Source: Oscillospiraceae bacterium (GTDB lineage Bacteria; Bacillota; Clostridia; Oscillospirales; Oscillospiraceae). From it: a DNA stretch of 64,000 nucleotides. The position numbers and the translations under genes were made by a program. The stretch's first letter is position 1. Every line of letters starts with the position of its first letter. The stretch is taken from the NCBI GenBank assembly GCA_017861365.1, contig JAGFXR010000001.1, forward strand, positions 62,001 through 126,000, written 5' to 3'. This document shows, one piece after another, positions 39,618 to 62,781 of this stretch. The notes under the pieces were generated by a model. That model made no database searches and was not told where the DNA came from. It saw only the letters and a list, made by a program, of their open reading frames with translations.

Positions 39618-40256
39618 TTATGACAGCTCCGCCAGATTTTGAAGCAGCTTATAGAGCAGATCAACGGTCTGCTCTATGTAGGTACCGGAATCTTGGATGT
39701 AATCGTCAAACAAAATGCCATGGCACACGTCTTCAATTAGAAGATTGCAATAATGCAAAAATATATTCTGAGCCTCTTCATTCTTAAAAGGAATTTTGAT
39801 AATATCAAACACGTCCCGCGTGTTCTGGTCACGTTTTTTCAGAGATTCAGCATTGATTGCGGCGATGTCTTTATCTAAAAGATCCAGCGCCGTCATATCG
39901 TCATGAAACAACTTAGAAAAATTATGGCAGTCCATCATCAGTTTGATAAACAATTTAAAGAGGTCCTTCATCCGTTTTTCGTCTTTGAGTTGATAAGGCC
40001 CGCTTATTTCCCAGAAGCTATGGGTTGGCAGATGAAATTGATTACTGATTCTTTGGTGAACCTCAATATAGATTTCTTTTTTATCCACAAAATAGGAGTA
40101 TAGTGATCCGGTTGATACGCCTGCTTCTTTTGCGATATCTGCCGTGGTGACGCGGTAGTAACCTTTTTCATTAAAGAGTGTAAAGGCAGAATCCAAAATC
40201 TTTTCATATTTTTCAAGGGATCGTTTCTGCACTGGCATTCTTGTTTTCCGTTCCAT
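39618..40256 (-). CDS. TetR-family transcriptional regulator
   Basis: 212-aa repressor with an N-terminal helix-turn-helix domain: EKILDSAFTLFNEKGYYRVTTADIAKEAGVSTGSLYSYFVDKKEIYIEV, the TetR/AcrR signature, followed by a ligand-binding region of unknown specificity. It is transcribed divergently from the MFS exporter gene, and two near-identical palindromic sites flank the exporter promoter, so it very probably represses that exporter (and perhaps itself). SD AGAGGG lies 5 nt before the ATG. Confidence 0.92.
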   Translation of the reverse strand: MERKTRMPVQKRSLEKYEKILDSAFTLFNEKGYYRVTTADIAKEAGVSTGSLYSYFVDKKEIYIEVHQRISNQFHLPTHSFWEISGPYQLKDEKRMKDLFKLFIKLMMDCHNFSKLFHDDMTALDLLDKDIAAINAESLKKRDQNTRDVFDIIKIPFKNEEAQNIFLHYCNLLIEDVCHGILFDDYIQDSGTYIEQTVDLLYKLLQNLAELS

Positions 40257-40329
40257 AATAACCCTCTGTTCTGTCCATCAAAGGCGTTTTTTCTATGATT
40301 AATATAATACCTACGGATATGGAAGTCAA

Positions 40330-40351
40330 GAATGTGAAATTTGTTTCATAT
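40330..40351. promoter_or_regulatory. Putative TetR operator 1
   Basis: Palindrome with half-sites ATGTGAAA / TTTCATAT just upstream of the -35 of the exporter promoter. It matches operator 2 at 20 of 22 positions. Confidence 0.75.
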
Positions 40352-40357
40352 TTAATA

Positions 40358-40386
40358 TTGACATCTGTTGTGTCAGCTATTATTAT
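40358..40386 (+). promoter_or_regulatory. Promoter of the MFS exporter
   Basis: TTGACA (40358-40363), 17-nt spacer, TATTAT (40381-40386), lying exactly between the two operators. Confidence 0.85.
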
Positions 40387-40388
40387 GT

Positions 40389-40410
40389 GAATGTGAAAGC
40401 TGTTTCATAT
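40389..40410. promoter_or_regulatory. Putative TetR operator 2
   Basis: Second copy of the ATGTGAAA-N4-TTTCATAT palindrome, starting 2 nt after the -10 box, where bound repressor would block initiation. Start-to-start distance to operator 1 is 59 bp. Confidence 0.8.
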
Positions 40411-40510
40411 ATCAATGTAGAGAATTTTAAAGGTATATTGTAGCTGTGCTGCGGGTCTGGGCGTTTAGCCGCTTCAGGATCAATCAGCAGCGAAGAAAGA
40501 GAGGTTTACT

Positions 40511-42166
40511 ATGCTGAAAAAAAGATTAGCCTTTATTGCCATTGACATTGCGTGTTTTCTGACGGTGCTCGACAGCACCATTGTGAATGTGTCGCTGCCC
40601 AACATGGCAGAGTATTTTAACACCACGACAACAGGAATTTCCTGGGTGAGTACGGCATATTTAATTGCATTTTCATCACTGCTGATTAATTTTTCTAAAA
40701 TCGCGGATATTTACGGAAGAAAACGATTATTTTTAATCGGCCTTTTCTTGTTTGGAATTTCTTCCGCCTGCTGCGGGCTTGCAGACTCTTTGCCGCTGCT
40801 GATTGCCTGCCGCATCATGCAGGGGGTTGGAGCCGCGATTTTGACACCGCTGGCCATCCCGCTTGGGGTCGAACTATTTGGCAAGGAGGCGCTCGGTAAG
40901 CTCTCCGTTATTGTTGGCTTGACCATTTCCATTTCGGCTGCGTTAGGCCCGGTAATAGGCGGTCTTTTGAATGAATGGTTTACTTACAGGGCAATCTTCT
41001 ACATCAATATTCCCTTTGTGATCGTGGCCCTGGTTCTCGGTACGTTCTATGTAAAAGAATGTTATGACGAGAGTGTTGAAAAGAAGATTGATTTTCTGGG
41101 ATGTCTATTGCTGTTCGTGGCATTGGGAACATTCACATTGCTTTTGGTCCGGGGAAATGAATATGGCTGGGGAAGCAATCGGACTATCCTGCTGGGCTGT
41201 AGTTCCGTGCTTTCAGCCGTACTGTTTGCAGTGGTCGAACGGAACTCAAAAAATCCAATGATTGATTTCAAGTTATTTCAGATGGGGTCTTTTTCTGCGT
41301 CCAGTGTATTAATTGCCGTGTTCTTCTACGCTTACATGCCGATATCCTATCTGTTGAACTTTTTCTTTGAAAACACGCTGGGTTATTCCGTGCTGAAAGC
41401 CGGTTTAATGATGGGAATTCCCAGTCTCACCGCATTATTAGTAACACCGTTGATGCCGTTTTTGTCAAAAAAAGCATCCGCGAAAGTTATCTCTTTCCTA
41501 ACTGTTCTCATTGCGGTGATCGGAAACCTGCTTCTTGTGTTTATGAACAGCTCTAATCACATGCTCATCATTTGCACTTCTTTCGTGCTGATGGGGATTG
41601 GCGTCAGAATCGCAACCATACTATATCAGACTGCCTATGAGGAGATATCCAAGGATCAAAATGCAATGGCGTCAGGCATTCAAAACAGCATGCGGCAGTT
41701 GACGGCATGCATTGCCATCGCCTTCGTAGCCACGCTCAGTACCCACTATACAACTATCGCTACCGATCATACAAAGGTGGAACTGATCAGCGATGTCACG
41801 GCGAGCACTGTGCTGGATCAAAGTGTCAAGGACGCGTTTATCACAGCTGCAAGCCAGTCAACAGATTCTGTCAGCCTTGATGACTCGAAAGAAATGGTTC
41901 ATACCATGCTTGCCCAAGAAGAACAGGTCGTTTTATCCGCACTTCCCAGTGACCAGCAGTCGGCTGTAACGGAACAGTTCAGTGCACAGGAAGCAGAGTT
42001 GGATTCTATTCTGGAGCATACCTCCATATTCAAGGAAGCAGAAAGCTATCGAGTTTACAACAAGTGCTTTTTTGTGACGGGAATGATCGCGCTCTTGGGA
42101 ATGATTGCTGTTCCGTTCAATCATAAAAAACGCAACACAATTACAATGGAAGTCAGCAATCAATAG
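40511..42166 (+). CDS. MFS drug exporter, DHA2 (14-TM, EmrB/QacA) family
   Basis: 551-aa proton-coupled efflux pump. N-terminal IDIACFLTVLDSTIVNVSLPNMAEYF is the DHA2 motif D1 (LDxTIVNVALP), and GRKRLFLIGLFLFGISSACCG, RIMQGVGAAILTPLAIPLG and LGPVIGGLLNEWFTYRAIFYINIP follow as motifs A-C. A hydrophilic segment of about 115 residues (about 415-525) between the last helices is a large extracytoplasmic loop typical of 14-TM members. The drug is unknown. It is controlled by the divergent TetR regulator. Confidence 0.92.
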   Translation: MLKKRLAFIAIDIACFLTVLDSTIVNVSLPNMAEYFNTTTTGISWVSTAYLIAFSSLLINFSKIADIYGRKRLFLIGLFLFGISSACCGLADSLPLLIACRIMQGVGAAILTPLAIPLGVELFGKEALGKLSVIVGLTISISAALGPVIGGLLNEWFTYRAIFYINIPFVIVALVLGTFYVKECYDESVEKKIDFLGCLLLFVALGTFTLLLVRGNEYGWGSNRTILLGCSSVLSAVLFAVVERNSKNPMIDFKLFQMGSFSASSVLIAVFFYAYMPISYLLNFFFENTLGYSVLKAGLMMGIPSLTALLVTPLMPFLSKKASAKVISFLTVLIAVIGNLLLVFMNSSNHMLIICTSFVLMGIGVRIATILYQTAYEEISKDQNAMASGIQNSMRQLTACIAIAFVATLSTHYTTIATDHTKVELISDVTASTVLDQSVKDAFITAASQSTDSVSLDDSKEMVHTMLAQEEQVVLSALPSDQQSAVTEQFSAQEAELDSILEHTSIFKEAESYRVYNKCFFVTGMIALLGMIAVPFNHKKRNTITMEVSNQ

Positions 42167-42175
42167 AAAAACAAG

Positions 42176-42213
42176 AGAGCCGACGCGTTTTGTAACGCAT
42201 CGGCTCTTTTATT
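42176..42213. terminator. Bidirectional terminator between MFS exporter and the flavin operon
   Basis: Fourteen-bp stem (42176-42189 with 42194-42207, one mismatch) and 4-nt loop, followed by TTTTATTTTTT on the plus strand and TTGTTTTT on the minus strand, serving two convergent genes. Confidence 0.88.
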
Positions 42214-42244
42214 TTTTGCATCAAACGGGAGATGATTTGCCCTG

Positions 42245-44908
42245 TTAGGGCTGATACCGGATGAGATCGGCAATGTAATAGCCCATACTATCCTGCTCAA
42301 TACCGGCGGAAAGAATACTGCCGTCGGACATCTGCACTGCGTTAAACATGAGGCTGCCCCGGCTTGTAGCAAAGACAAAGCTCCAATCCACAGCGCCGCT
42401 TTCAGAATTGATGGAACCAAGCCAGCCATATTTCTCGGTATACTCCTCGTCATAGCTTTCTATGACCAGAAGGGGCTGATTGTCTGATCCCAGCGTCAAG
42501 GCGCTTAAGTAATCCTCATCGGCATAGGTATAATCCTTGACCCAAAGCTCGGAGCCGTCCCCATCCAGCTTGGCCAGTGTGACGCAGTCCGTTCCCGACT
42601 TATAACTGTAGGCGGCATAGATATTGTCTTCATTATCCACGACTACGCTGGACTGGTAGGGTTCCCAATCAGTCTGGTAAAGCTTAGTCCACCGGACGGT
42701 GTCCAGATCCGCGCTGACGCGCATGACAAACAGCTTAGCGTCCCAGGTGTTGTCGGACCATCCGCCGTTCTGGAAGGTAAAGTTCTCCCCGGCCGAGCCT
42801 CCGATCACAATCAGGTCTCCATCGCTTGTTTTGGCAAGGCTCACAATCAGGTCATCGCTGTCGCTTCCGAACACCTGAACTGTCTTCAGCTCACCTGTCG
42901 CTGCGTCAATGACCGCAAGAAGCGCATTGGAGTCTCCAAGGGCAGAGCCAAAGACGCCGTCTGCGGCGTTGCTCATGCCGCCGACCACAATGGTGCCGTT
43001 GCCCATGTCAACAGCGTTATTGGCCCACATCCAGTACTGGTTGAAGGCATCATTGCTGGCTGCTCCGTCGGCGGTTACACTGCCGCTGCTATAGTTTTTC
43101 TGCCAGAGGATCTGGCCGTCCGCAGACAGAAGGATGGCTGCGGCATCGGTATCCTCTCCATCTTCGCCGTCCGTGGATGTGTCTGGATCAACGGCATAAT
43201 AGCCTGTCAGAAACAGACCTTCGGAGGTTGTGATGATGTTTGCGAAGCGGTATCCCGGTACCAGCTGCTTCCACACAAGTGCACCGGATGTATCATACTT
43301 GACGATCAGAGCGTTGGATACGCCGTCCACGTTGGTCAGTCCTGTGGCGACATAACCGTCGTCCACCTCCTGTACATCATAGAACCAGCTGTCTCCATCC
43401 GACATGGATTCGCCGCCGTAGCTTGCAAACACGGTGTAGCCGTCGCGGCTTTCCTCCTGCTCGGACACCGGGTTTTCGGAGGCCAGATTGAGAGCGTATT
43501 TGGTTGCGTTGATAATGCCTTTGCTCGAATAAGTGGCACTGCTGACCGTATCCACATCTGTGCTCTGCTGCTCCAGAATTTCACTGATGACACCTTCCGC
43601 CGCCTGAACGACATAGGGACTGTCCTCGTTGTTCTCGCCCAGGGTGAGCGCAACCAGCTGATTGTCCTCAATGGTCGCCGTGACATGCAGTCCGGCATAA
43701 AGGCCGCGCGCAATTCCCACATAGGTTCCGTCCTTGTAGGTTCCGGTAAGCGCGTCGGCAACAGTGTAGCCCTTTTCTGTCACGGAAGATTTCAGCGCGT
43801 TTTTGACTGCGTTGACGATACCACGGCTGGAGAAGGTGGCGCCGCTGACTGTATCCACATCCGTGGTGCTCCCAGCCAGCATCTTATCCACGACCACGTC
43901 CGCTACGTTGAAATAGAGCTTATCCTCATCATGATTGACGACATTGATGGCAGACAGAGCGCCGTTTTCGACCTGTACCTGCACCTGAATCGTGCTTTTG
44001 TAACCATAGGCGCTGCCTGTATAGGTGCCGTCGGCCCATTTGTCAGGTTTACGGGTTTCAGCGGCAGTGCTGCCGTTTTGAAGGACGATCTGCGTATCGA
44101 GAGACTTCTGATTCAGCAGACCGGAAACAGTTACGCCATCTAAAGTGACACTCCCGCTGCCCACTGAGGCGCTTACGGTCAGGTCTCCCGTTACAGACGT
44201 ATTCGCCAAAGTGACATCCGCCCCGCTGATGCTCACATCAGAAACCGTTCCCAGCGTGTAGGTGCCGGGAAAATACAGGGTGCGGGAATCCGCATAGAGA
44301 CGGTTGAGCAGGGTGACGGCCTCGGCGCGGGTCAGGTTGTCCGTGGGCAGGAGGTTACCGCCGCTGCCTACGACATAACCGCTGTTGATGGCCGCGGCTA
44401 CCGCGGGTTTGGCCCAGCTGGCAATGTCCGAAGCGTCAGAAACCTGACTGAGAATGGACTGATCCGCTGCATCTGTGGAAAGCCCTGCTGCCCGGGAAAG
44501 CATTACAATGGCCTCCTGCTTGGATACCAATGCCTCGGGGGACATGGTATCCGAGGCGGTGCCGGTAATATAACCCGCCGCCAGTGCCTTGGAGACCTCG
44601 GTGTAATACCATGCGTCTGTTGAAATGTCCGTGTACTGGGAGACGGAGTCAGAAGTGGCTTCAAAGTCCATCATCCGGTTCACCAGCGTGAGATACTCGG
44701 CGCGGGTGATTTCACTGTCGGGATCGAGGTTGCCGTCGCCGTCGCCCGTCAGAAAGCCGTCCTCCTGCCAGTCCAGCATGACGTCCTGCGCCCAGTGGCC
44801 GCTGACATCGGTGATCTCGTCGGAGCCGTGGGCAGATGCGTTGATCATGAGTCCGGCGGCGGAAACGACGGTCAGGGTAAATATGCATAGTTTCTTACTG
44901 AATTTCAT
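42245..44908 (-). CDS. S-layer-homology surface protein with two covalent-FMN-binding domains
   Basis: 887-aa exported surface protein, last gene of the flavin operon. Order: signal peptide (1-26); three SLH segments (about 30-205: VSGHWAQDVMLDWQEDGFLTGDGDGNLDPDSEITRAEYL; DAWYYTEVSKALAAGYITG; LTRAEAVTLLNRLY); a Ser/Thr-rich beta region (about 210-285); FMN-binding domain 1 (290-375), predicted flavinylation Thr358 in DTVSGAT; FMN-binding domain 2 (388-475), Thr459 in DTVSSAT; then a C-terminal repeat domain resembling a beta-propeller (about 495-887). SLH anchors it to the wall. It probably accepts electrons from the membrane FMN protein; the propeller may bind a mineral, partner or substrate. 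Confidence 0.9.
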   Translation of the reverse strand: MKFSKKLCIFTLTVVSAAGLMINASAHGSDEITDVSGHWAQDVMLDWQEDGFLTGDGDGNLDPDSEITRAEYLTLVNRMMDFEATSDSVSQYTDISTDAWYYTEVSKALAAGYITGTASDTMSPEALVSKQEAIVMLSRAAGLSTDAADQSILSQVSDASDIASWAKPAVAAAINSGYVVGSGGNLLPTDNLTRAEAVTLLNRLYADSRTLYFPGTYTLGTVSDVSISGADVTLANTSVTGDLTVSASVGSGSVTLDGVTVSGLLNQKSLDTQIVLQNGSTAAETRKPDKWADGTYTGSAYGYKSTIQVQVQVENGALSAINVVNHDEDKLYFNVADVVVDKMLAGSTTDVDTVSGATFSSRGIVNAVKNALKSSVTEKGYTVADALTGTYKDGTYVGIARGLYAGLHVTATIEDNQLVALTLGENNEDSPYVVQAAEGVISEILEQQSTDVDTVSSATYSSKGIINATKYALNLASENPVSEQEESRDGYTVFASYGGESMSDGDSWFYDVQEVDDGYVATGLTNVDGVSNALIVKYDTSGALVWKQLVPGYRFANIITTSEGLFLTGYYAVDPDTSTDGEDGEDTDAAAILLSADGQILWQKNYSSGSVTADGAASNDAFNQYWMWANNAVDMGNGTIVVGGMSNAADGVFGSALGDSNALLAVIDAATGELKTVQVFGSDSDDLIVSLAKTSDGDLIVIGGSAGENFTFQNGGWSDNTWDAKLFVMRVSADLDTVRWTKLYQTDWEPYQSSVVVDNEDNIYAAYSYKSGTDCVTLAKLDGDGSELWVKDYTYADEDYLSALTLGSDNQPLLVIESYDEEYTEKYGWLGSINSESGAVDWSFVFATSRGSLMFNAVQMSDGSILSAGIEQDSMGYYIADLIRYQP

Positions 44909-45497
44909 TTATGCCATCCTTTTCCTTATATTTTTGTTTAATTTTGTTTTTTTGAATCTTTGACGCAAGCCGGTTGCATTGCTCACCTCCTTTAAGGTTT
45001 TCGAACCCGATATGGCGCAGGTGCTGAATGAAAAATTGAGAGCACAGTCCTGTGAACAGTCCCGTAAACACCCCAATCAGGATCAGTGCCGGCAGATACC
45101 AGAATACCACGGTTGTTTTCATGACCGCCGCCGCGACTGCAATCTGTCCGATATTATGGGCAATGGCTCCCGCTACCCCGGTTACCCAGACCTCCCGCGC
45201 ACCCACCAGCCGTCGAAAAAGCAGCAATGTCAGATAACACAGAAGGCCACCGCCCAGACTGTAAAGAAACACCGTCATCTGCCCGGAGAAAACACTGCCC
45301 CAAAAGATCCGGCACAGAAGAATGCCTAAAGCGTCTGCCGGACCAAGCAGGAACATGGCGCATACCGTGACAATATTGGAAAGCCCCAGCTTGATGCCCG
45401 GTATGGGGACAATGAGCGGCAGCTGCGCTTCAATCACGTGAATGATCAGCGCGGCCGCCGTCAGCAGAGCCATGGTGGTCAGCCGCTTTGTATTCAT
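44895..45497 (-). CDS. EetB-like membrane protein (Gx / Hpre_diP_synt_I family)
   Basis: 200-aa membrane protein with about five or six helices. LLTAAALIIHVIEAQLPLIVPIPGIKLGLSNIVTVCAMFLLGPADALGILLCRIFWGSVF is the signature of the family annotated 'heptaprenyl diphosphate synthase component I' or 'Gx transporter', which in Listeria is EetB of the extracellular electron-transfer locus. I start at the ATG at 45497, 8 nt after AAAGGAG; an ATG at 45515 has no SD. Its C-terminal 14 nt overlap the SLH-FMN gene. The exact biochemical role of EetB is not established. Confidence 0.88.
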   Translation of the reverse strand: MNTKRLTTMALLTAAALIIHVIEAQLPLIVPIPGIKLGLSNIVTVCAMFLLGPADALGILLCRIFWGSVFSGQMTVFLYSLGGGLLCYLTLLLFRRLVGAREVWVTGVAGAIAHNIGQIAVAAAVMKTTVVFWYLPALILIGVFTGLFTGLCSQFFIQHLRHIGFENLKGGEQCNRLASKIQKNKIKQKYKEKDGINEIQ

Positions 45498-45511
45498 CGG
45501 CATAGCTCCTT

Positions 45512-45889
45512 TCATTGGCTTAAACCGTCAATCGAGTCAGACGACGTGTCGCCCACAATTTCGATTATCAAATGGTGCGGCAGGCAGACGATGGGCTGCC
45601 CAGGCTGATCAATCCAGCCTTGATGGACACAGATCTGGTCAGGGCAGTCAGCGTCAGTGATACAAATACGGCCTGTTTCAACAGAAACCGTATTTGTGCC
45701 CGTGTCGTCTGTGATATCAATGGTATAGGGAGTCTCAACCGCGCTTAAATCAATGCTGTATAGAAGCTGACCGTCCTGATAAATGTTTGCCACGGAGCCG
45801 TGCGCCGCTGTCGCGGAAAGCAATAAGGCGGCCGAGCAGAGAAGAACAATGCAGGCAATCAGGACAATCCAGGGAAGGTGCCGCCTCAC
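45512..45889 (-). CDS. EetA-like NusG domain II protein, membrane-anchored
   Basis: 125-aa protein with one N-terminal membrane helix (WIVLIACIVLLCSAALLL) and an extracytoplasmic NusG_II domain: VANIYQDGQLLYSIDLS and the Cys-rich ICITDADCPDQICVHQGWIDQPGQPIVCLPHHLIIEI. This family is EetA in Listeria-type electron-transfer loci. The conserved C-x5-C and IVCLPH residues are present. The start is a GTG at 45887-45889 overlapping the apbE stop as GTGA; downstream it nearly abuts the eetB-like gene. Confidence 0.88.
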   Translation of the reverse strand: MRRHLPWIVLIACIVLLCSAALLLSATAAHGSVANIYQDGQLLYSIDLSAVETPYTIDITDDTGTNTVSVETGRICITDADCPDQICVHQGWIDQPGQPIVCLPHHLIIEIVGDTSSDSIDGLSQ

Positions 45890-46995
45890 GGCTGTATCAC
45901 CGTGAGAGTGCGGCCCGTGTCAGTGTCGGAAAGGGTGAAGCTGTTTTCCAAGCCACTGGTGATGTAGACATCGCCGTCTTCTGTAATGAACACAGCCTCG
46001 AAATCTCTGTGTTCCCGCCAAAAGTCCGAAGCTTGATCCAATCCCATAACAAACAGGGACGTGGAAAGTGCCTCCGCGTATATTCCCGTGTCGGTAATAA
46101 TGGAAACCGAGAGCAGGCCGGTTTTGGCGGGATATCCGGTTCTGGGATCGAAGATATGCCAGTAGACCGTGCCATCGTCGCCGGTAAAATAGCGCTCGTA
46201 GCCGCCGGAGGTAATGACTGTTTTGTTGACAACGGATACAATTCCCAGATAGTCGTCCCCACTGGGATCTTCAATTCCAACCCGCCACGCGGAGCCGTCC
46301 GGCTTGGCCCCCAGAGTTTGCACATTGCCGCCTAAATTGACCATGGCGGAGGTGATGCCGTTGTCGGCAAAAAGCTTGAGCAGTACATCGCCCGTATAAC
46401 CCTTGGCAAGGCTTCCGAAGTCCACCATCACTCCCTCCGGCAAAGTGACGACGGAGGTGTCGGCATCAAAAGAAATGCTTCGGTAATCTACCGTTTTCAA
46501 AAGCTCGGTCAAGGTGTCCGCGTCCGGTATCTGGTATTCTCCCGTGGTGAAGCCCCAGGCCCGGACGACCGGATAAATGGTCACGTCCAGAAGTCCGCCC
46601 GTCAGCTGGCCGTATTTGATTCCGTCCTCCACCAGAGCCGCTGTGTCGGGGGACACCGTGGCTGTGCCCTGGGCGTTGAGCGCGTATATCTCGCTGTCCG
46701 GGTTGGTGGTGGAAAGCAGGCTGTCCAGGGCTGTAATCCGGTCTGATGCTTCTTGCATCAGGGCGTCGTCCCCGCCATAGGCGGTCAATTGCATGACCGT
46801 GTCCATAGCAAACACCGTCGTTGTCGCCGGGGTGCTGGTTATGTCGGACGATACGTCGGCTGACATGGTGGATGTGCTGGATGTACCCGACGCGCCGGAC
46901 GCACTGCCGCAGCCGGCCATCAGCCCCAGCAGCATGACCAGCACCGCGATTTTTACCCCGCTTGAGACTCCGGTGATCTGATTACGCTTTTGCAT
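45886..46995 (-). CDS. apbE: FAD:protein FMN transferase (ApbE), lipoprotein
   Basis: 369-aa enzyme that transfers FMN from FAD to a Thr of target proteins outside the membrane. A lipobox signal (VLVMLLGLMAGC) and Ser/Thr/Ala linker precede the ApbE domain: FAMDTVMQLTAYG, LTGGLLDVTIYPVVRAWGF, VMVDFGSLAKGYTGDVLLKLF, SAMVNLGGNVQTLG, HIFDPRTGYPAKTGL and the Mg-binding IITDTGIYAEALSTSLFVMG. Its targets are most likely the three FMN-binding domains encoded on either side. The ATG overlaps the 3' end of the membrane gene by 14 nt. Confidence 0.95.
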   Translation of the reverse strand: MQKRNQITGVSSGVKIAVLVMLLGLMAGCGSASGASGTSSTSTMSADVSSDITSTPATTTVFAMDTVMQLTAYGGDDALMQEASDRITALDSLLSTTNPDSEIYALNAQGTATVSPDTAALVEDGIKYGQLTGGLLDVTIYPVVRAWGFTTGEYQIPDADTLTELLKTVDYRSISFDADTSVVTLPEGVMVDFGSLAKGYTGDVLLKLFADNGITSAMVNLGGNVQTLGAKPDGSAWRVGIEDPSGDDYLGIVSVVNKTVITSGGYERYFTGDDGTVYWHIFDPRTGYPAKTGLLSVSIITDTGIYAEALSTSLFVMGLDQASDFWREHRDFEAVFITEDGDVYITSGLENSFTLSDTDTGRTLTVIQP

Positions 46996-48385
46996 GACTG
47001 AGTGCCGCCTCCACCGCCGCGATAATTCCCTTGGAGCTGTATGTGGCTCCGCTGACCGTATCTACTGATGTGCTTTGGCTTGCTAAAATGTCGTTGATCA
47101 GATCCTTGGCGGCAGAAAAATACGGCTCATCCTCATCTTCATCGGTGACAGCAATGGCGGTAATGACATCATTTTGAATGGTTACACTGACGGTTATGGT
47201 TCCGGCGTAGCCTGTGCCACTGCCGCTGAACGTGCCGTTTTTGTAAGTATAAGTCACCGCTGCCACAGGCTCTGAGGCCGTTGTCTCGGCAGTCTGTGGG
47301 GCGGCGGCTTCGGCGGCGGTTTCATTCTGAGTTGCCTTCGAAGCGGCCGTGCTCGCGGCGGCCGCCACGGTCTGGGTGGCGGGACTTGCTTGAGTACTTG
47401 CCGCAGCCGCAGTTGTTTCAGTGTTGGAGGAAACAGAAGCTTCGGGAGTTTCAGTAACGTCTGAAATCTCAGTCTCGGCAGGTTCCGATTCGGAGGAGTC
47501 CTGCGTTGTCTCAGCAGCTGCCGCGACCGATTCACTTGTCACCGCATCTGTTGACGAAACGTATTCTGTGTCCACTTCAACCGCTGCCGCGGCATTCTCC
47601 TGTGCCTGTACCGAGGCTGCCGCTTGGGAAGCAACCGGCAGGCAGATCAGAGCCAGCACCGCAAGCGCCGCGCCGTAGGGAATCATAGACCTGCGGGGAG
47701 AGGCGCCTCGTTTTTTCAGCGCCTTGCCTACCCGCATAGCGGCATAACCCAAAAATACCAGACTGTAAATTACCACTGTCAGGCTGTAAATGGTTTGTCC
47801 CGCGAGGGCTCCGGGCACTGACAGAAGCATGACATGCACATAAAGCAGGCCATAAAACAGATATGAGCTTCGTTGAAACGCCTTCCAGCGTGCGGGTTTC
47901 ATTTTTTTACGCACCGCGGGAAAGGAGGTGATTGTGAGCGGCACCATAAGGCAGATCAGGATAATGGTGATGACTCCCGCTGCAAATTGATTTGAGGAAA
48001 GCAGAGCGGGCTTTGTAAACATAAATACAAAATATGTAGTGCCGTAAGTGGCGTTATGACATAATGTCAGAATCGCCGCTAAAATAGAAAGCTCCGCCCG
48101 GATCGGCATCAGTACTTTGATGAGCCGGGAGCCGGTGGGCAGAGCTCCTGCGTACATAACGAAAATAAACAGAGCGGTTGCGAGGGCGCCTCTGGAAAAC
48201 AGCCCTACAATCCAATACTGAACCCATTTTGGAAGTTCGGTTACAGCGCCTGTGGATGTTGCCAGAAAAACTAAGACCGCAATAATGACGGCAGCCGCAT
48301 AGAATACGGCAGGACGCTTCCTAATGAGTACACGGCAGGTAATGATGAACGCGAAGGAGATGCACAGGGCTAGGAGAAGCAGCAT
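46982..48385 (-). CDS. Ferric-reductase-like transmembrane protein with C-terminal FMN-binding domain
   Basis: 467-aa first gene of the flavin operon. Residues 1 to about 255 have six to seven membrane helices in the ferric-reductase-like pattern, with candidate haem ligands H110 (ILTLCHNATYG) and H184 (GLLYVHVMLL). Residues 256-375 are an Ala/Glu/Thr/Ser-rich extracytoplasmic linker. Residues about 380-467 form an FMN-binding domain with predicted flavinylation Thr448 (DTVSGATYSS). This architecture could carry electrons across the membrane through haem to a covalently bound flavin and then to the S-layer flavoprotein. Strong SD AGAGGG. Confidence 0.88.
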   Translation of the reverse strand: MLLLLALCISFAFIITCRVLIRKRPAVFYAAAVIIAVLVFLATSTGAVTELPKWVQYWIVGLFSRGALATALFIFVMYAGALPTGSRLIKVLMPIRAELSILAAILTLCHNATYGTTYFVFMFTKPALLSSNQFAAGVITIILICLMVPLTITSFPAVRKKMKPARWKAFQRSSYLFYGLLYVHVMLLSVPGALAGQTIYSLTVVIYSLVFLGYAAMRVGKALKKRGASPRRSMIPYGAALAVLALICLPVASQAAASVQAQENAAAAVEVDTEYVSSTDAVTSESVAAAAETTQDSSESEPAETEISDVTETPEASVSSNTETTAAAASTQASPATQTVAAAASTAASKATQNETAAEAAAPQTAETTASEPVAAVTYTYKNGTFSGSGTGYAGTITVSVTIQNDVITAIAVTDEDEDEPYFSAAKDLINDILASQSTSVDTVSGATYSSKGIIAAVEAALSHAKA

Positions 48386-48413
48386 AATTTGTCCCTCTTT
48401 TAATGAAATGATA

Positions 48414-48429
48414 GTTAGCGTGGGCTAAT
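48414..48429. promoter_or_regulatory. Putative operator, GTTAG-N6-CTAAT
   Basis: Inverted repeat GTTAGC-GTGG-GCTAAT in the leader of the flavin operon. It matches the motif found twice here and at two other loci in the window. Confidence 0.65.
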
Positions 48430-48441
48430 TTTGGGGGATGT

Positions 48442-48465
48442 AATAACCCCCGTACGGGGGTTATT
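48442..48465. repeat. Perfect 24-bp palindrome in the flavin operon leader
   Basis: Arms AATAACCCCC and GGGGGTTATT around GTAC, lying between the two GTTAG operators. In RNA it would form a 10-bp hairpin, but no T-run follows on the minus strand, so it is not an ordinary terminator. The CCCCC-N4-GGGGG layout resembles operators of the CsoR/CstR family; that link is inference. Confidence 0.8.
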
Positions 48466-48468
48466 GGG

Positions 48469-48484
48469 GTTAGCTAGAGCTAAC
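48469..48484. promoter_or_regulatory. Putative operator, GTTAG-N6-CTAAC (perfect)
   Basis: GTTAGC-TAGA-GCTAAC, starting 9 nt after the -10 box of the flavin operon promoter, i.e. over the expected start of transcription. Confidence 0.75.
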
Positions 48485-48493
48485 GTTTTTCTG

Positions 48494-48522
48494 AGAATAC
48501 CATGTTTTTTCCTCTCCGTCAA
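48494..48522 (-). promoter_or_regulatory. Promoter of the flavin electron-transfer operon
   Basis: Minus-strand TTGACG (48517-48522), 17-nt spacer, TATTCT (48494-48499), giving a leader of about 100 nt. The 180 nt beyond, up to 48703, show nothing I can support. Confidence 0.7.
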
Positions 48523-48703
48523 GAAGCAGTTTAGATTGAATGGTTTTTCAAAGCGATCGTCCGTTCAAATTTGGCAATCTGGTTGCCGGTTCGAATTTTG
48601 CTCTCAATGCCGGTATTTCGCAGGATTTCTCTGTCACACAAGTGATCTGATTCGATCAGGTCATGCTTGCTGCAGGGGGGTCGTTGCCCGTCTGCCCATA
48701 ACA

Positions 48704-48746
48704 AATAAGGTCAGTCAGGGTTGAATAGACCCTGACTGACCTTATT
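48704..48746 (-). terminator. Strong hairpin, probable terminator of the His/Cys-rich protein gene
   Basis: Perfect 18-bp arms (48704-48721 with 48729-48746) and a 7-nt loop; minus-strand continuation TTTGTTATG. It is about 120 nt after the stop at 48867. The interval 48747-48866 shows no gene. Confidence 0.7.
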
Positions 48747-48866
48747 GAGGGAAGCAAAAGTGAATTTCTGTCATTACGGATGTTCCATATGATCACGGTG
48801 AAACGCAAGCTGACCGTCGGTGCCGCAGATGATGGAGCATATGCTTCTCCTGCATGATGACGGTAT

Positions 48867-49346
48867 TTACAGCGTATCTACGACCGCATATCCCCGGGAT
48901 GTCAGTGCCATGCTTCCGCAATCCATTCGGGCAATATCAAACAGGAATCCCTCTCGGTCGCTGCCCTCAAGTACGGTATTTTGAAAGACCCGGTATGCCA
49001 TTGACAGATGATATTGCTCATACCCGCATCCCTGCAGAGGTTGGTCATAGTCAAGAGAAATAAAATTCTTTTGTTCCAGCTCGCGGAGTACGTGACTGTT
49101 TTCCAGTACAGATTCAAACGTTTCTTCTGCTTCCGACAAATATACCGGTGCAAGTGCAACCGATTCCAAATGCTCAGATTTCGTGCTGGCCAGCACAAAT
49201 CGGACGATAGGCAGATAGGGGATTTGCGCCAGACCCATCAGCAGCGTCTGCTCGCGCTGCGACAGCGTGACATGATGACAATGGCAGCTTTGGCAGCCGC
49301 CACAGCAATGGTGCGCCGCCTTGCTATGCGAATTTGTATGATTCAT
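48867..49346 (-). CDS. His/Cys-rich N-terminal protein, unknown, predicted metal-responsive
   Basis: 159 aa; no named family recognised. The first 28 residues are rich in metal-ligand residues (HSKAAHHCCGGCQSCHCHH), which would bind transition metal. The remaining ~130 residues form a compact domain with helical character (LSQREQTLLMGLAQIPYLPIVRFVL; ESVLENSHVLRELEQKNFISLDYDQPL) resembling a winged-helix layout by eye only. It stands alone, with an excellent SD (GGAGG) and a promoter whose -10 is immediately followed by a 30-bp inverted repeat containing the GTTAG-N6-CTAAC motif, so it is tightly regulated. Confidence 0.75.
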   Translation of the reverse strand: MNHTNSHSKAAHHCCGGCQSCHCHHVTLSQREQTLLMGLAQIPYLPIVRFVLASTKSEHLESVALAPVYLSEAEETFESVLENSHVLRELEQKNFISLDYDQPLQGCGYEQYHLSMAYRVFQNTVLEGSDREGFLFDIARMDCGSMALTSRGYAVVDTL

Positions 49347-49367
49347 AAATACCTCCGGAAAATCCAG

Positions 49368-49397
49368 TATAGGTTAGTTAGCGATAACTAACCTATA
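49368..49397. promoter_or_regulatory. 30-bp inverted-repeat operator containing GTTAG-N6-CTAAC
   Basis: Perfect 13-bp arms (TATAGGTTAGTTA / TAACTAACCTATA) around GCGA. The core GTTAG-CGATAA-CTAAC is at 49377-49392. It directly abuts the -10 box, an ideal repressor position. Confidence 0.85.
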
Positions 49398-49425
49398 GTT
49401 TAACAGAGTGCGGCGGGCACGTCAA
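49397..49425 (-). promoter_or_regulatory. Promoter of the His/Cys-rich protein gene
   Basis: Minus-strand TTGACG (49420-49425), 17-nt spacer, TAAACT (49397-49402). Confidence 0.7.
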
Positions 49426-49481
49426 TCATCAGTTGTCGATCTTTTATTCACCGGAACCTGAAAAATCATATTGCAGGCAAG

Positions 49482-50312
49482 TCAAACGTCTTTGTTTGAA
49501 TGACCGTCCTCCAAAAACGGTGCGTACATCATAAGCACATGATTTTCCGAAACAAACTCCTCGCCATAATCAGTTCCATCCCAGTCAAAGACCTGCCGCC
49601 AAAGCTCATTATGGCGGGTGAAACCGCCCCAGTATTCACCCCGGATGTAATGGTTCCGTTCCACGATCCTATATTGTTGAACCGGTTTGCATGTCGACCG
49701 CCATTCGCCAAATAAATTTTCATCCTGCACCTGTACATGAAGTTGAAATTCCTGATCGGTATCATTTCGAATCATTAAATCACCGTATGGGTAAAAGCAG
49801 GTTGCGCCGCTGCCAAAGGGTTGTGTCCGATTGGAGTCTGGGAATACATCATAGCCATGATGATGTCGTTCCGTCACCGTCAGCGGCGTGTGCAGTGCCA
49901 TCCAGTAAATGAGATTGGAAAGCTGACATAGCCCTCCGCCGACCCCTGCTTCCACTTTCCCGCTTACCAGAATCATACCCGGCAAATATCCCTTTCGCAC
50001 CGTTGGCTTCCCGATTGTTTTCCAATAGCTAAAGGTTTCGCCCGGTTTGAGTATGAGCCCATCCAATTGAGCGCAGGCCAGACGCAGATTGGTCACTTTG
50101 TTGTATTGAAGCTGCAATTCAAGTCCGCTCAGTTGGCGCAGTAACGGTGTGGCGTGCCGAAACTGGATCTCCGGGAGCATCAGAGCGCCGCGCTTTTTCG
50201 CATATGGGCCGGAACACCTCCATTGAAGATAGCGCATAGCTGAAAAATACGCTTTTCCTGCCATCATGTGCAGTTTGGAGCGATGCTTGGGCCGGTGACG
50301 CAGCTCATCCAT
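49482..50312 (-). CDS. VanW-family protein
   Basis: 276-aa protein with the VanW domain: LKPGETFSYWKTIGKPTVRKGYLPGMILVSGKVEAGVGGGLCQLSNLIYWMALHTPLTVTERHHHGYDVFPDSNRTQPFGSGATCFYPYGDLMIRNDT, the conserved GGGLCQ and F-P-x-S-x-R-x-x-P-x-G-x-D/A-A motifs. The family was named after an accessory gene in vanB glycopeptide-resistance clusters, but its biochemical function is unknown and no van genes are present here. It has no obvious signal peptide. SD AAAGGATG precedes the ATG. Confidence 0.88.
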   Translation of the reverse strand: MDELRHRPKHRSKLHMMAGKAYFSAMRYLQWRCSGPYAKKRGALMLPEIQFRHATPLLRQLSGLELQLQYNKVTNLRLACAQLDGLILKPGETFSYWKTIGKPTVRKGYLPGMILVSGKVEAGVGGGLCQLSNLIYWMALHTPLTVTERHHHGYDVFPDSNRTQPFGSGATCFYPYGDLMIRNDTDQEFQLHVQVQDENLFGEWRSTCKPVQQYRIVERNHYIRGEYWGGFTRHNELWRQVFDWDGTDYGEEFVSENHVLMMYAPFLEDGHSNKDV

Positions 50313-50640
50313 GAAATCATCCTTTCGTTATTCAAAGTGCCGCGCTGGTTTTAATATCTTATGGCTACTTCATAAAATTGTAAATGAATTCAATGAAAAA
50401 TTCAATAAGATAGCTGTATTTGATATAAAATTAATATGTTTTTGTTGTCCGTTTAAAGGGCGCTGCACAGAAAAAGCTGCTTTTTCGAAGTGCGGAGATA
50501 AAAATTTTTATTTATGCAAAATAAGGGCTGTTCAAAATGCTTTGGAAGTGATACAGTAAACATATGTGAACAATATGCATTGAGGAGAAAACGGACTGCA
50601 CCGCGGAAAAGCGTGCCGAACGACCGGAAAGGAAGATTTT
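50313..50640 (+). other. Intergenic region upstream of the cysK-GST operon
   Basis: AT-rich 328-nt gap between divergent genes. A weak sigma-A-like pair, TTCAAT then TATAAA with a 17-nt spacer, lies near 50400-50430 on the plus strand. I see no T-box, SAM riboswitch or clear operator. Nothing else is supportable. Confidence 0.4.
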
Positions 50641-52596
50641 ATGGGTAAGATTTACGGCAGCGTTTTGGATGTTGTGGGACATACACCTCTGGTGGAACTT
50701 CAGCGTCTGGGAGAAAAACATGGAGGGTCTGCGCGGATTCTGGCAAAGCTGGAGTTTTTCAATCCCGCCGGAAGCGTGAAAGACCGTATAGCCAAGGAAA
50801 TCATTGAGGCGGCGGAGCGGGAAGGAACGCTTGCTCCGGGCGGAACCATTGTGGAAGGCACCAGCGGAAACACGGGAATCGGACTCGCCGCCATTGCCGC
50901 GGTGAAGGGGTATCGGTCTGTGATCGTCATGCCGGACAATATGAGCCAGGAGCGCATCAGTATTTTAAAAGGCTATGGTGCCAAGGTGGTGTTAACACCG
51001 GCGGAGCAGAATATAGCGGGAGCCGGGGCGAAGGCGGCGGAGCTGGCCGCTTCCATTCCGGGCGCCTTCATTCCCGCCCAGGGGGCGAATCCCGCTAATC
51101 CGGCCGCCCACTACCAGACCACGGGGCCTGAAATCTGGGAAGACACCGACGGTGAGGTAGACATCTTCATCGCCACCGCAGGAACCGGAGGTACCATTAC
51201 CGGAGCGGGAACCTACTTACGGGAAAAGAAGCCGGAGATTGAGATCATTCTGGTGGAGCCAGCCGGATGCCCGGTGTTTTCCGGCGGCGAGCCGGGACCC
51301 CACAAAATTCAGGGCATCGGCGGAGGTTTGATTCCTCCGGTGGCAAGCCGGGACATCTATAATGAAGTGATCACCGTCACCGACGAGGATGCCTATCGGA
51401 TTGCCAGGGAGCTGGCTCGGGAAGAGGGCATCTCAGCCGGAATCTCCGCGGGAGCCGCGGTATGGGCCGCGCTGGAGGTGGCCGCCCGTCCGGGGAATGC
51501 CGGGAAGCGGATTGTGGTGATCATCCCCGATTCCGGTGAGCGCTATCTCTCCTCCGATCTGTATGATGAGGAGCTGGAAGCAGAATCGACGGAGGGTGCG
51601 GTTCGCCCCCGGCCGATGGAGACGCAAAACGAAATAGACGAAACCGGTGCCTTTATCCGGCAGAAAAACCACTTTACCACCCCGTTTGGAGACGGGGAAG
51701 GTCAGCTCAAGGCGGAAGCGGGCCGATACCGGCTGTTCTGGGCAAAAGGGTGCCACTGGTCCAACAGGGCGTCCATTGTCCGGGAGCTGCTTGGTCTGGA
51801 GGATTCGGTCGGTATCAATCTGGTGGGTCATGAAGGGGGAGAAGGCGCACAGTACGGCTGGGCCTTTGTGCATGATGAGGGTCACCGGGATCCGGTACTG
51901 GGAGTGCGGTATTTGAGCGAGCTTTATTACAATGCCGACCCCGCTTATACAGGACGGTGCACCGTACCTGCCCTGGTGGATGTCACCACCAAACAGGTAG
52001 TCAATAACGATTATCATCGCCTCACCAACTACCTGGAAACTGCATTCCGTCCCTTCCACAAAAAGGGTGCCCCGGATCTCTATCCGGAACCGTTGAGACA
52101 GCAGATTGATGCTCTGAACGACTGGCTGTTTCCCCATGTCAACAACGCCACCTACCGTATGATGTTTGCCCAGTCGATCGGCGCCTATGAGGAAGCCTTC
52201 GAGGATTTTTACCAGTCTCTTGATGTTCTGGAGGCCAGGCTGCAAGACAGCCGATTCCTGTTCGGAGATTATGTAACCGACAGCGATATCCGGCTTTTTG
52301 TCACACTGGCGCGGTTTGATACCCACTACTATCGGAATCTGGGGCCTATCAAAAAACGAATCGCCGATTATCAAAACCTCTGGGGGTATGCCCGGGATTT
52401 ATACGAAATTCCGGCGTTTCGCCACAATACCTACCTGCGGGACATTGCGGCGGGGGGCACACGGGATCAATCCGTGCTGTTTGAAGATTTTAATACCCGC
52501 TTTGCGGATCAGATTGACTATGATGCCCTGTGGTCTACTCATCAAAACCGGTGGAAACTCAGCAAAACACCGGATCAAAAATTCAAACTTGTCTGA
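50641..52596 (+). CDS. Cysteine synthase fused to a Xi-class glutathione transferase domain
   Basis: 651-aa two-domain protein. Residues 1-310 are an O-acetylserine sulfhydrylase: VVGHTPLVEL, PLP-lysine NPAGSVKDR (K47), EGTSGNTGIGLA, TAGTGGTITG, EGISAGISAGAAVWAAL and PDSGERYLSSDLY. After a linker (311-330), residues about 331-651 are a glutathionyl-hydroquinone-reductase-like domain: GAFIRQKNHFTTPFG, GRYRLFWAKGCHWSNRASIVRELLGL (active Cys371; CPWAHR in relatives is CHWSNR here), VNNDYHRLTNYLETAF, LFGDYVTDSDIRLFVTLARFD and NLWGYARDLYEIPAF. No frameshift signature is seen at the junction. The fusion suggests cysteine or a cysteine-derived thiol is the co-substrate. Confidence 0.9.
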   Translation: MGKIYGSVLDVVGHTPLVELQRLGEKHGGSARILAKLEFFNPAGSVKDRIAKEIIEAAEREGTLAPGGTIVEGTSGNTGIGLAAIAAVKGYRSVIVMPDNMSQERISILKGYGAKVVLTPAEQNIAGAGAKAAELAASIPGAFIPAQGANPANPAAHYQTTGPEIWEDTDGEVDIFIATAGTGGTITGAGTYLREKKPEIEIILVEPAGCPVFSGGEPGPHKIQGIGGGLIPPVASRDIYNEVITVTDEDAYRIARELAREEGISAGISAGAAVWAALEVAARPGNAGKRIVVIIPDSGERYLSSDLYDEELEAESTEGAVRPRPMETQNEIDETGAFIRQKNHFTTPFGDGEGQLKAEAGRYRLFWAKGCHWSNRASIVRELLGLEDSVGINLVGHEGGEGAQYGWAFVHDEGHRDPVLGVRYLSELYYNADPAYTGRCTVPALVDVTTKQVVNNDYHRLTNYLETAFRPFHKKGAPDLYPEPLRQQIDALNDWLFPHVNNATYRMMFAQSIGAYEEAFEDFYQSLDVLEARLQDSRFLFGDYVTDSDIRLFVTLARFDTHYYRNLGPIKKRIADYQNLWGYARDLYEIPAFRHNTYLRDIAAGGTRDQSVLFEDFNTRFADQIDYDALWSTHQNRWKLSKTPDQKFKLV

Positions 52597-61713: not shown

Positions 61714-62139
61714 TTATCCCGCCAGAGCCCGGCCCATGGCAAGAAGGGTGTCCCGGATTGAATCGTCGGGCGCATCCTGACAGATGACGCTCTCATGGGC
61801 CAGACGCGCGCCCATCTGGAGACAGCGCTCCTCCCAGTCCCGCATCCATTGCCCGTCTCCCCAGCCATAGGAGCCGAACAAAGCAATCGGCTTATCGGAC
61901 AGCTTGGGGATGCAGTTTAGAAACATCGGCTCAAATTCCATATCCTCCAGCTCCTCCGCACCCATGGAAGGGCAGCCGAAGGCAATGACGTCATAGCCAT
62001 CCATTTGATCCACGGAAAATTCTCCCGCTGTGTACATCGTGATATCCCCGCCGGCGGAAGCGATGCCCTCTTTGATGGAGAGCGCCATAGCCTCCGTATT
62101 TCCGGTTCCGCTCCAAAATACAATTGCTGCCTTTTTCAT
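61714..62139 (-). CDS. Flavodoxin
   Basis: 141-aa FMN-binding electron carrier: AIVFWSGTGNTEAMALSIKEG is the phosphate loop, and FGCPSMGAEELEDMEFEPMF and LFGSYGWGDGQWMRDWEERC form the flavin loops. Short-chain flavodoxins replace ferredoxin under iron limitation in many bacteria. It lies 24 nt after the DUF3793 gene and shares its promoter and the GTTAG-N6-CTAAC operators. SD AAAGGTGAGG. Confidence 0.93.
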   Translation of the reverse strand: MKKAAIVFWSGTGNTEAMALSIKEGIASAGGDITMYTAGEFSVDQMDGYDVIAFGCPSMGAEELEDMEFEPMFLNCIPKLSDKPIALFGSYGWGDGQWMRDWEERCLQMGARLAHESVICQDAPDDSIRDTLLAMGRALAG

Positions 62140-62163: not shown

Positions 62164-62715
62164 TTATGCCGCCACAGTCAGCTGTTCGATGGATTTTCCT
62201 AATTGGAATTGCTTCAAATAGCAATCGGTACATTTTTTGTATCGATCAAATCGTTTTATCGACTCGGATTCGTCTCCGTATACCTTCCAGCAACCGGTGC
62301 ACTTGCAGTTTTTCCCTTGATTTCTCATAAAACCGACCACATCCCGCAAAGGATATTGCAACAGCAGGCCGATTTCGTGCGGGAAAGCGCCCTGTTTTGA
62401 CATCCGTGCCGAAATTTCCTTGATAAACCCGTCCACAGAGCAGTCTTGATACCCCAGCTTCGTGAGAAATCGCTGGGTGATGGGATTGCCAAGCTCTTTA
62501 AGGGCCATCCGTTCCCGGTATACCAAAATGAGAGCTGCCGCTTTGCCGTCTCTGAGCACCGTAATGTTGATGCCTTTTCCTCTCAGTCGCCGGTTGGCAT
62601 CGGATACCTGCCTCTCAAGCTCTGATAAAGAACGATAAGGGAAGCGAAATAGGCTCCCGCACTTCATGCCGGCCAGGGTGGGCGCGCAGTATTGGATGAA
62701 ATACGAATCGATCAT
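62164..62715 (-). CDS. DUF3793 family protein
   Basis: 183 aa. Recognised as DUF3793 from APTLAGMKCGSLFRFPY at the N-terminus, ALILVYRERMAL, and FPHEIGLLLQYPLRDVVGFMRNQGKNCKCTGCWKVYGDES, with a Cys pair CKCTGC and a second KKCTDCYLKQFQ near the C-terminus. No biochemical role is known; the family commonly lies beside flavodoxins. Here it is the first gene of a two-gene operon under a strong promoter with two operator motifs. SD AAAGGAG. Confidence 0.85.
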   Translation of the reverse strand: MIDSYFIQYCAPTLAGMKCGSLFRFPYRSLSELERQVSDANRRLRGKGINITVLRDGKAAALILVYRERMALKELGNPITQRFLTKLGYQDCSVDGFIKEISARMSKQGAFPHEIGLLLQYPLRDVVGFMRNQGKNCKCTGCWKVYGDESESIKRFDRYKKCTDCYLKQFQLGKSIEQLTVAA

Positions 62716-62765: not shown

Positions 62766-62781
62766 GTTAGCAAAAACTAAC
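62766..62781. promoter_or_regulatory. Putative operator, GTTAG-N6-CTAAC
   Basis: GTTAG-CAAAAA-CTAAC, 7 nt after the -10 box, over the expected transcription start. Confidence 0.75.

Follow-up and report, generated by a model that had tools for sequence, protein, structure and literature searches.

A five-gene flavinylation operon of an Oscillospiraceae bacterium: a probable electron relay to the cell wall, possibly serving iron acquisition

Introduction

Why electrons would be led from a membrane cytochrome through flavins to the cell wall is the question raised by five overlapping genes on the minus strand (42245–48385) of a 64,000-nucleotide stretch of an Oscillospiraceae genome (positions 62,001–126,000 of contig JAGFXR010000001.1, assembly GCA_017861365.1; the whole stretch is referred to here as the window). 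A sequence-only reading had described these genes as an extracellular electron transfer operon, running from a ferric-reductase-like membrane protein with a flavin mononucleotide (FMN) domain, through ApbE, EetA-like and EetB-like proteins, to an S-layer homology (SLH) protein featuring two FMN domains and a propeller-like C-terminus; open reading frame (ORF) calls and Pfam matches agree on this layout. Interpreting them as a flavin-based electron path to the wall is broadly correct, and the operon very probably encodes such a relay. Extracellular respiration is not the best-supported purpose, since the same operator-like palindrome stands before the operon and before iron genes; iron-repressed surface ferric reduction for iron uptake is favoured over a respiratory electron sink, with reductive iron acquisition under iron limitation given a probability of roughly 0.5.

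Operon layout and flavinylation machinery

The five ORFs, all on the minus strand, overlap in order by 14, 4, 4 and 14 bases. The first (48385–46982, 467 aa) encodes a cytochrome–FMN_bind fusion, and the second (46995–45886, 369 aa) the FAD:protein FMN transferase ApbE (FAD, flavin adenine dinucleotide; PF02424, 4.5e-85), probably a lipoprotein judging by C29, picked out by eye. The third, with a GTG start (45889–45512, 125 aa), encodes an EetA-like protein with NusG domain II (NusG_II, PF07009, 3.3e-36), and the fourth (45515–44895, 206 aa) an EetB-like protein (Hpre_diP_synt_I, PF07456, 8.5e-40), by analogy probably the S subunit of an energy-coupling factor (ECF) transporter for FAD export; Pfam matches thus place ApbE, the EetB-type protein and the EetA-like NusG_II protein in one cluster. 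The fifth ORF (44908–42245, 887 aa) encodes a protein featuring three SLH domains, two FMN_bind domains and a propeller-like end. Thr448 of the first protein and Thr358 and Thr459 of the last, named in the sequence-only reading as flavinylation sites, were recovered by script within SGAT, SGAT and SSAT, respectively.

A predicted membrane cytochrome fused to an FMN domain

The fusion protein (46982–48385) comprises a STEAP/NOX/MsrQ-like transmembrane part (residues 1 to ~256), an Ala/Ser/Thr/Glu-rich linker (~257–380) and a C-terminal FMN_bind domain (46997–47212, minus strand; Pfam, 5.2e-15), where residue 448 is the threonine of the SGAT in the predicted flavinylation site SGATYSS. The description ‘ferric-reductase-like’ stands in part: Pfam scans of the window's own cytochrome sequence give no match to PF01794, but this family is matched at E up to 0.1 (best 9.8e-9) by 22 of 42 aligned sequences, comprising the window's and those from 41 of 79 fetched loci, and the predicted fold is STEAP/NOX-like.

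That prediction comes from an AlphaFold2 model of the transmembrane part, generated from the 42-sequence alignment, with a predicted local distance difference test (pLDDT) score of 94.9. Foldseek comparison of this model filled the first four rows with STEAP2 and STEAP1 and ranked NOX5 sixth and Dcytb eighth, with a best E of 0.082 and none below 0.001. When the candidates were re-aligned with VIA-align, STEAP4, STEAP2, STEAP1, Streptococcus pneumoniae NOX, Dcytb, NOX5 and DUOX1 fell within the first 16 rows at Z 12.5 to 8.3, the STEAP matches at Z 12.3–12.5 and all of these bar DUOX1 spanning Z 12.5–9.1. Helical bundles may score about Z 13 from a common arrangement alone, so weight is put on the unbroken run of membrane haem reductases. 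A PDB sequence search with the cytochrome profile returned nothing relevant, and no NAD-binding or cytosolic NADPH domain was found in the fusion by Pfam.

H110 and H184 are the sole invariant histidines across the 42 aligned sequences, and one haem bound between them is therefore expected. Lysine and arginine residues number 3, 3, 6 and 7 in loops 19–28, 80–96, 154–168 and 216–236, against 2, 1 and 0 in loops 46–66, 120–131 and 193–199 and none in residues 256–300; by the positive-inside rule, this distribution would place the FMN domain outside the membrane.

A predicted wall protein carrying two FMN domains and a propeller-like C-terminus

The last protein (42245–44908) has a signal-peptide-like N-terminus (by eye) suggesting secretion, and three SLH domains (Pfam, 5.2e-25) predicted to anchor it to the wall. 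They are followed by two FMN_bind domains (5.4e-22; both over cut-off), at 43790–44005, with Thr358 in SGAT, and at 43487–43690, with Thr459 in SSAT (both minus strand). The PplA model is absent among its six NCBIfam matches; the protein has SLH domains and might stand in for a PplA-type lipoprotein.

The C-terminal domain (residues 491–887; 42248–43438, minus strand) is probably a beta-propeller. A single-sequence AlphaFold2 model, poor at pLDDT 51.5, consists of successive strands with one helix, and Foldseek with this model returned many beta-propellers among the top ranks at template modelling scores of about 0.2–0.4, which is suggestive only; CylK and others in that list are propellers. 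In a leave-one-out test of seven assumed blades, 25, 15, 375, 58, 266, 108 and 1 of 1000 shuffled decoys reached the weakest real copy of blades 1–7, respectively. The term ‘propeller-like’ is thus consistent with the fold matches, on a poor model and thin repeat evidence.

Conservation of the operon and its split counterpart

Since a whole-protein search for relatives was swamped by SLH domains, the cytochrome and the C-terminal domain were searched apart. A scan of genome_contigs, described as covering 84,980 species, with a four-row cytochrome profile matched 541 stretches, 134 of which encode a relative; the best 80 of the 134 were kept and yielded 79 loci, some stopping at contig ends. 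The haem–FMN fusion that had seemed unusual occurs as a single ORF in 73 of the 79 (own profiles), a share biased upward by the fused proteins making up all four query rows, and a figure legend of PMC11334425 supplies a precedent in an MsrQ–FMN_bind1 protein. ApbE is found in 32 of the loci, EetA in 23 and EetB in 26, with all four components, including the cytochrome–FMN protein, in 22.

The same five genes in the same order, the architecture for which a search had been proposed, are present in Ruminiclostridium hungatei DSM 14427 (locus L089) and Ruminiclostridium sufflavum DSM 19573 (L090). Their last proteins (889 and 887 aa) are both 61% identical to the window's over full length and retain both flavinylation motifs. 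By part, identities for R. hungatei and R. sufflavum are 53 and 60% for the SLH region, 66 and 65% for the first FMN domain, 72 and 76% for the second and 63 and 60% for the propeller, whose conservation equals or exceeds that of the SLH region.

A profile of the C-terminal domain matched 6 of 391 genomes of the class at E 0.001, with the full fused domain in three, the window's and two of one genus. Protein identity with L089 and L090 shows the latter to be the R. hungatei and R. sufflavum records; they account for the domain's presence in 2 of 11 genomes of the family to which Ruminiclostridium belongs. A separate marginal match to the C-terminal part, in one other genome of a family-level search (E 9.6e-4), was not counted. 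Full-length relatives of the domain sit in or beside this module in the genomes searched. Related cassettes encode SLH–FMN proteins of 1994, 1400, 1396 and 1004 aa that do not match the propeller profile, the first three featuring other C-terminal parts in its place.

On another contig of R. sufflavum, the propeller domain constitutes a lipoprotein in its own right (profile E 2.8e-27), 27% identical to the window's C-terminal domain over 431 columns by direct comparison (E 1e-24). Behind it, on that strand, lie genes for a stand-alone cytochrome (PF01794, 27.7 bits against a cut-off of 28) and an FMN_bind lipoprotein (3.9e-13), with a DtxR/MntR-family gene divergent upstream. A domain that is fused to its partners at one locus and adjoins them at another carries the usual sign of joint function, and the split locus argues against an unrelated adhesin; from these sequences, a redox link appears better supported than the propeller fold itself. 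That the flavoprotein merely carries an adhesin would suit the rarity of the domain, with three full-length fused cases in 391 class genomes, and propeller-like repeat proteins are common on bacterial surfaces; the split locus, where it neighbours a cytochrome and an FMN lipoprotein, and its conservation, no lower than that of the SLH region, make this explanation very improbable.

The domain could alternatively be an enzyme or binding module for a particular non-iron acceptor, with the flavins feeding that one reaction. Its conservation, the confinement of its full-length relatives to the module or its immediate surroundings, and the other C-terminal parts of related SLH–FMN proteins, as if the acceptor differs among them, are all in keeping with such a role; no enzyme family emerges, however, since Pfam gives nothing over cut-off for the domain and the PDB sequence search returned only PpgL (E 0.033), and a dedicated non-iron acceptor is accordingly held to be improbable.

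Putative promoter and operator

A sigma-70-like promoter, TTGACG-N17-TATTCT with TG before the −10 element, lies upstream of the first gene (48494–48522, minus strand); it is a consensus match only, such matches numbering 12 in the region against 4.8 in shuffles. Nine bases downstream of the promoter-like −10 is a perfect operator-like palindrome, GTTAG-N6-CTAAC (48469–48484), with a second copy carrying one mismatch at 48414–48429. All three five-gene operons have the palindrome upstream, as this perfect and mismatched pair in the window and as two copies each in L089 and L090.

Across 1.598 Mb of fetched loci, some of which overlap, with each site counted once, the spacing of six gave 89 distinct sites, compared with 0–3 for each of twelve other spacings in the range 0 to 12 and 0–4 for two control palindromes. 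Own ORF calls place 80 of the 89 in intergenic DNA. Of 72 downstream ORFs, 69 were scanned, leaving aside two cut at contig ends (one an enolase) and a 97-aa ORF overlapping a window site. The 25 of 39 families shown include DUF3793 (7 genes), enolase (7), FMN_bind (6), a Shr-like haemoglobin-interacting domain (5), AraC-type (4), ApbE (3), the iron-dependent repressor family Fe_dep_repress (2), and FeoB_N, FeoA and Zip (1 each). One of the seven DUF3793 genes is the window's own, and two others, in L097 and L098, resemble each other. The repressor genes in L202 and L109 gave matches to MntR and DtxR models that stay under the cut-offs. In five of five stand-alone cytochrome genes of the window's family (L049–L053), a site ends 35–72 bases before the matched start.

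Within 496 kb of the source genome, the spacing of six gave five sites against 0 or 1 for each other spacing, three of the five falling in the window. Beyond the operon, the window's copies are at 49377–49392, 30 bases before a gene at 48867–49346, and at 62766–62781, 50 bases before a DUF3793 gene (62164–62715) followed by a flavodoxin gene (61714–62139; TIGR01753 over cut-off), the DUF3793–flavodoxin pair being a candidate regulon member. Another own-genome site coincides with the start of a divergent AraC-type gene, and an MptD-type ECF transporter gene begins 73 bases away from it. Iron regulons classically include flavodoxin, Feo and DtxR-type genes, and the palindrome's distribution suggests an operator common to iron genes, which would put the operon under iron control.

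A perfect 24-bp palindrome, AATAACCCCCGTACGGGGGTTATT (48442–48465), lies between the operator and the first gene, occurring once in the window and in none of 100 shuffles. DUF3793, found behind the palindrome in 7 of the 69 scanned genes, may take part in the response to iron limitation. The 159-aa product of the gene at 48867–49346, which has a His/Cys-rich head and matches nothing in Pfam or NCBIfam, is a candidate metal-related member of the regulon. Between palindrome and cytochrome gene, L097 (7518–8915) and some other loci contain similar genes for secreted proteins of ~470–520 aa, of the kind ‘MDIPYxxFYxAE...VDAVSSATxSK’; the VDAVSSAT stretch resembles a flavinylation motif, and these proteins could be flavinylated or form a haem- or iron-binding module.

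Electron donor and haem supply

The most substantial competitor to iron acquisition is a respiratory or fermentative sink in which electrons pass to extracellular oxidants (minerals, quinones or shuttles), as in Listeria, with iron control secondary or absent. ApbE, EetA and EetB are components common to the Listeria system (passages of PMC9973259), and a quinol donor is possible. UbiA-family genes occur in all three genomes with the five-gene operon, as does a DHNA-prenyltransferase-like protein (DHNA, 1,4-dihydroxy-2-naphthoate), the two Ruminiclostridium copies of which score below curated cut-offs. In the source genome, MenA (136.8 bits, cut-off 102.15) and MenG exceed their cut-offs, the MenA-like gene residing on another contig (C24), and genes for electron transfer flavoprotein and a NapH-like protein are found on the same stretch as MenA and MenG. 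MenD is over cut-off in none of nine genomes, and the Mqn family (PF02621) in one of the nine, which is not the source genome.

Set against the electron sink, the operon itself lacks any Ndh2-, DmkA/B- or PplA-type gene, and neither Ndh2-type nor demethylmenaquinone genes were found among its five genes and four flanking genes scanned, which match other families. None of six relatives with a related cytochrome has a UbiA match (four of them at least 95% complete, two 77–83% complete), and judging by these six, a quinol donor is perhaps not required by such cytochromes. The operator, moreover, ties the operon to iron genes. An electron sink is accordingly regarded as unlikely, if appreciably less so than either alternative function of the C-terminal domain.

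Besides the five-gene operon, R. hungatei and R. sufflavum encode a row (L221, L222) of pyridine-nucleotide oxidoreductase, polyprenyl synthase, DHNA-prenyltransferase-like protein, lipoprotein and ApbE. The lipoprotein of these rows matches neither FMN_bind nor PplA and lacks a flavinylation motif, which rules them out as full Listeria-type electron transfer loci and leaves them partly Listeria-like only.

Proposed mechanism and its purpose

Electrons from the cytosol or from quinol would enter the membrane cytochrome b, with its single predicted haem at H110/H184, and pass to an FMN on Thr448, which a long flexible linker would tether on the outer side of the membrane. The next hop would take them to the two FMNs of the wall protein (Thr358 and Thr459), whose propeller-like end may dock the acceptor. 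A ferric complex or iron-bearing ligand is the likeliest candidate for this acceptor, and the resulting Fe(II) would be imported by Feo-type transporters. EetB, together with ECF partners encoded elsewhere, is predicted to supply FAD outside the membrane, with ApbE attaching FMN at the three sites. A candidate repressor of the DtxR/MntR family would bind GTTAG-N6-CTAAC at the promoter, the operon being switched on when iron is short. The sequences themselves show which genes are present, the flavinylation motifs, the fold class of the cytochrome, the operon's conservation across three genomes and the excess of the palindrome with the genes beside it; haem and FMN loading, the path and direction that electrons take, what the propeller binds, which repressor acts and the reduction of ferric iron are inferred.

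A number of findings weigh against iron-repressed uptake, thin operator counts included. The loci behind the operator were mostly chosen around a cytochrome gene, biasing the sampling of the regulon; just two of the five own-genome sites lie outside the window, and for one of these two (L229:6847) the target gene is not evident. Enolase genes, which do not fit an iron regulon, follow the motif in 7 of the 69 scanned cases (L127, L137, L138, L148, L153, L155 and L159) and in L143, cut off at its contig end; all belong to the Ruminococcus flavefaciens group and are 94–97% identical to a reference copy, perhaps reflecting one event. A site lies within 400 bases upstream of the cytochrome in only 4 of 78 loci and within 2.5 kb in 21 of 68, the sites of cytochrome loci often preceding an upstream gene of the presumed operon, and among the stand-alone cytochromes of the 79 loci, L130 alone of four has a site. 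In the split locus of R. sufflavum, 152 bases separate the site from the repressor gene and 432 bases from the lipoprotein gene, the repressor gene being the closer of the two.

Further points on the same side concern the proteins. The C-terminal model is poor, and of the seven assumed blades, blade 7 alone is clear in the leave-one-out test. Used as a single-sequence query against genomes, the R. sufflavum lipoprotein gave no match in the window's genome at E 0.001. The direct comparison of lipoprotein and domain helps the case; the missing flavin motif in the Listeria-like row counts against it. Ferrochelatase (PF00762) was found in none of nine genomes with a predicted cytochrome (G000, G562, G330, G065, G026, G127, G153, G173 and G097), compared with 8 of 14 control genomes; a different pathway or an external source may supply the haem.

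On balance, iron-repressed reduction of ferric iron at the surface is preferred. The compact five-gene form, conserved in DSM 14427 and DSM 19573, carries an operator that predicts induction by iron starvation and reduction of surface-bound ferric iron. More tentatively, the operon might exemplify an iron-repressed surface machine by which Gram-positive anaerobes acquire iron, in which a STEAP-like cytochrome–FMN protein feeds S-layer flavins and these in turn reduce ferric iron on a propeller, or on other surface modules in relatives, as one branch of a GTTAG-N6-CTAAC regulon of Clostridia together with DUF3793/flavodoxin, Feo and stand-alone cytochromes. If this were true, part of the ‘extracellular electron transfer’ of gut and rumen anaerobes would be iron acquisition.

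Flanking features and source genome

Downstream of the last gene is a terminator-like hairpin (42207–42176, minus strand) of 14 pairs, the longest stem of 11 listed. An Rfam scan of 40000–51000 found nothing at gathering scores, and a plasmid search returned no record covering 80% of the query. The source genome assembly is incomplete (1.69 Mb, 26 contigs, 74% complete). Its contig 19 contains a second flavinylation locus (L006:3678–8559), with a two-component system and a NapH-like protein, both recognised by eye, and a second ApbE; the sole other FMN_bind gene found in the genome encodes this NapH-like protein of 553 aa, with two FMN_bind domains, and adjoins the second ApbE gene.

Comparison with known systems

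The flavin-based extracellular electron transfer locus of Listeria monocytogenes encodes Ndh2, DmkA/B, FmnA/FmnB, EetA/EetB and PplA. Common to it and the window operon, here as predicted from genes, are an ApbE-type flavin transferase, an EetB-type FAD-export subunit, an EetA-type protein and an extracytosolic flavinylated protein. The window operon differs in its membrane cytochrome fused to FMN, in having no Ndh2 or quinone-synthesis gene, in a wall protein that combines SLH domains, two FMN domains and a propeller-like end where Listeria has the lipoprotein PplA, and in an operator suggesting iron control. Passages of PMC9973259 report that EetB and FmnA are needed for FAD export in Listeria, with EetA dispensable.

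STEAP metalloreductases, which carry a single haem, provide the best fold match for the cytochrome part, with two invariant histidines as for one haem. The window protein is, in contrast, bacterial, has no cytosolic NADPH domain that could be found and is fused to an extracytosolic FMN domain. MsrQ-like systems likewise combine a ferric-reductase-domain cytochrome with apbE and FMN_bind, but the window sequence fails PF01794, its nearest folds are STEAPs, and no NAD-binding domain was found in it. In passages of Meheust et al. (2021; PMC8238504), MsrQ-like (PF01794) flavinylation clusters are described as broadly distributed in Actinobacteria and infrequent elsewhere, with 153 of them holding a VIT1-type iron transporter, and an MsrQ–FMN_bind1 protein is modelled according to the Fig. 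5B legend of Huang et al. (2024; PMC11334425).

An S-layer flavoprotein, which had been taken as unusual, is familiar in kind: Meheust et al. also report SLH proteins in multi-flavinylated clusters, the role of which they call generally unclear. Compared by text only, those systems and the window operon have in common more than one FMN_bind domain, SLH domains and several flavinylated proteins in a cluster, with the window operon differing by joining SLH domains, two FMN domains and a propeller-like domain in one polypeptide, an architecture on which that text is silent. Among the literature matches listed, no title or abstract treats the operon, the SLH–FMN–propeller protein or DUF3793 with flavodoxin, subscription papers and supplements lying outside the search, as did the palindrome letters. 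The parts are thus already known from these systems, and added to them here are a five-gene architecture conserved in two named strains, a split propeller–cytochrome–FMN locus, and a putative operator linking the operon to iron.

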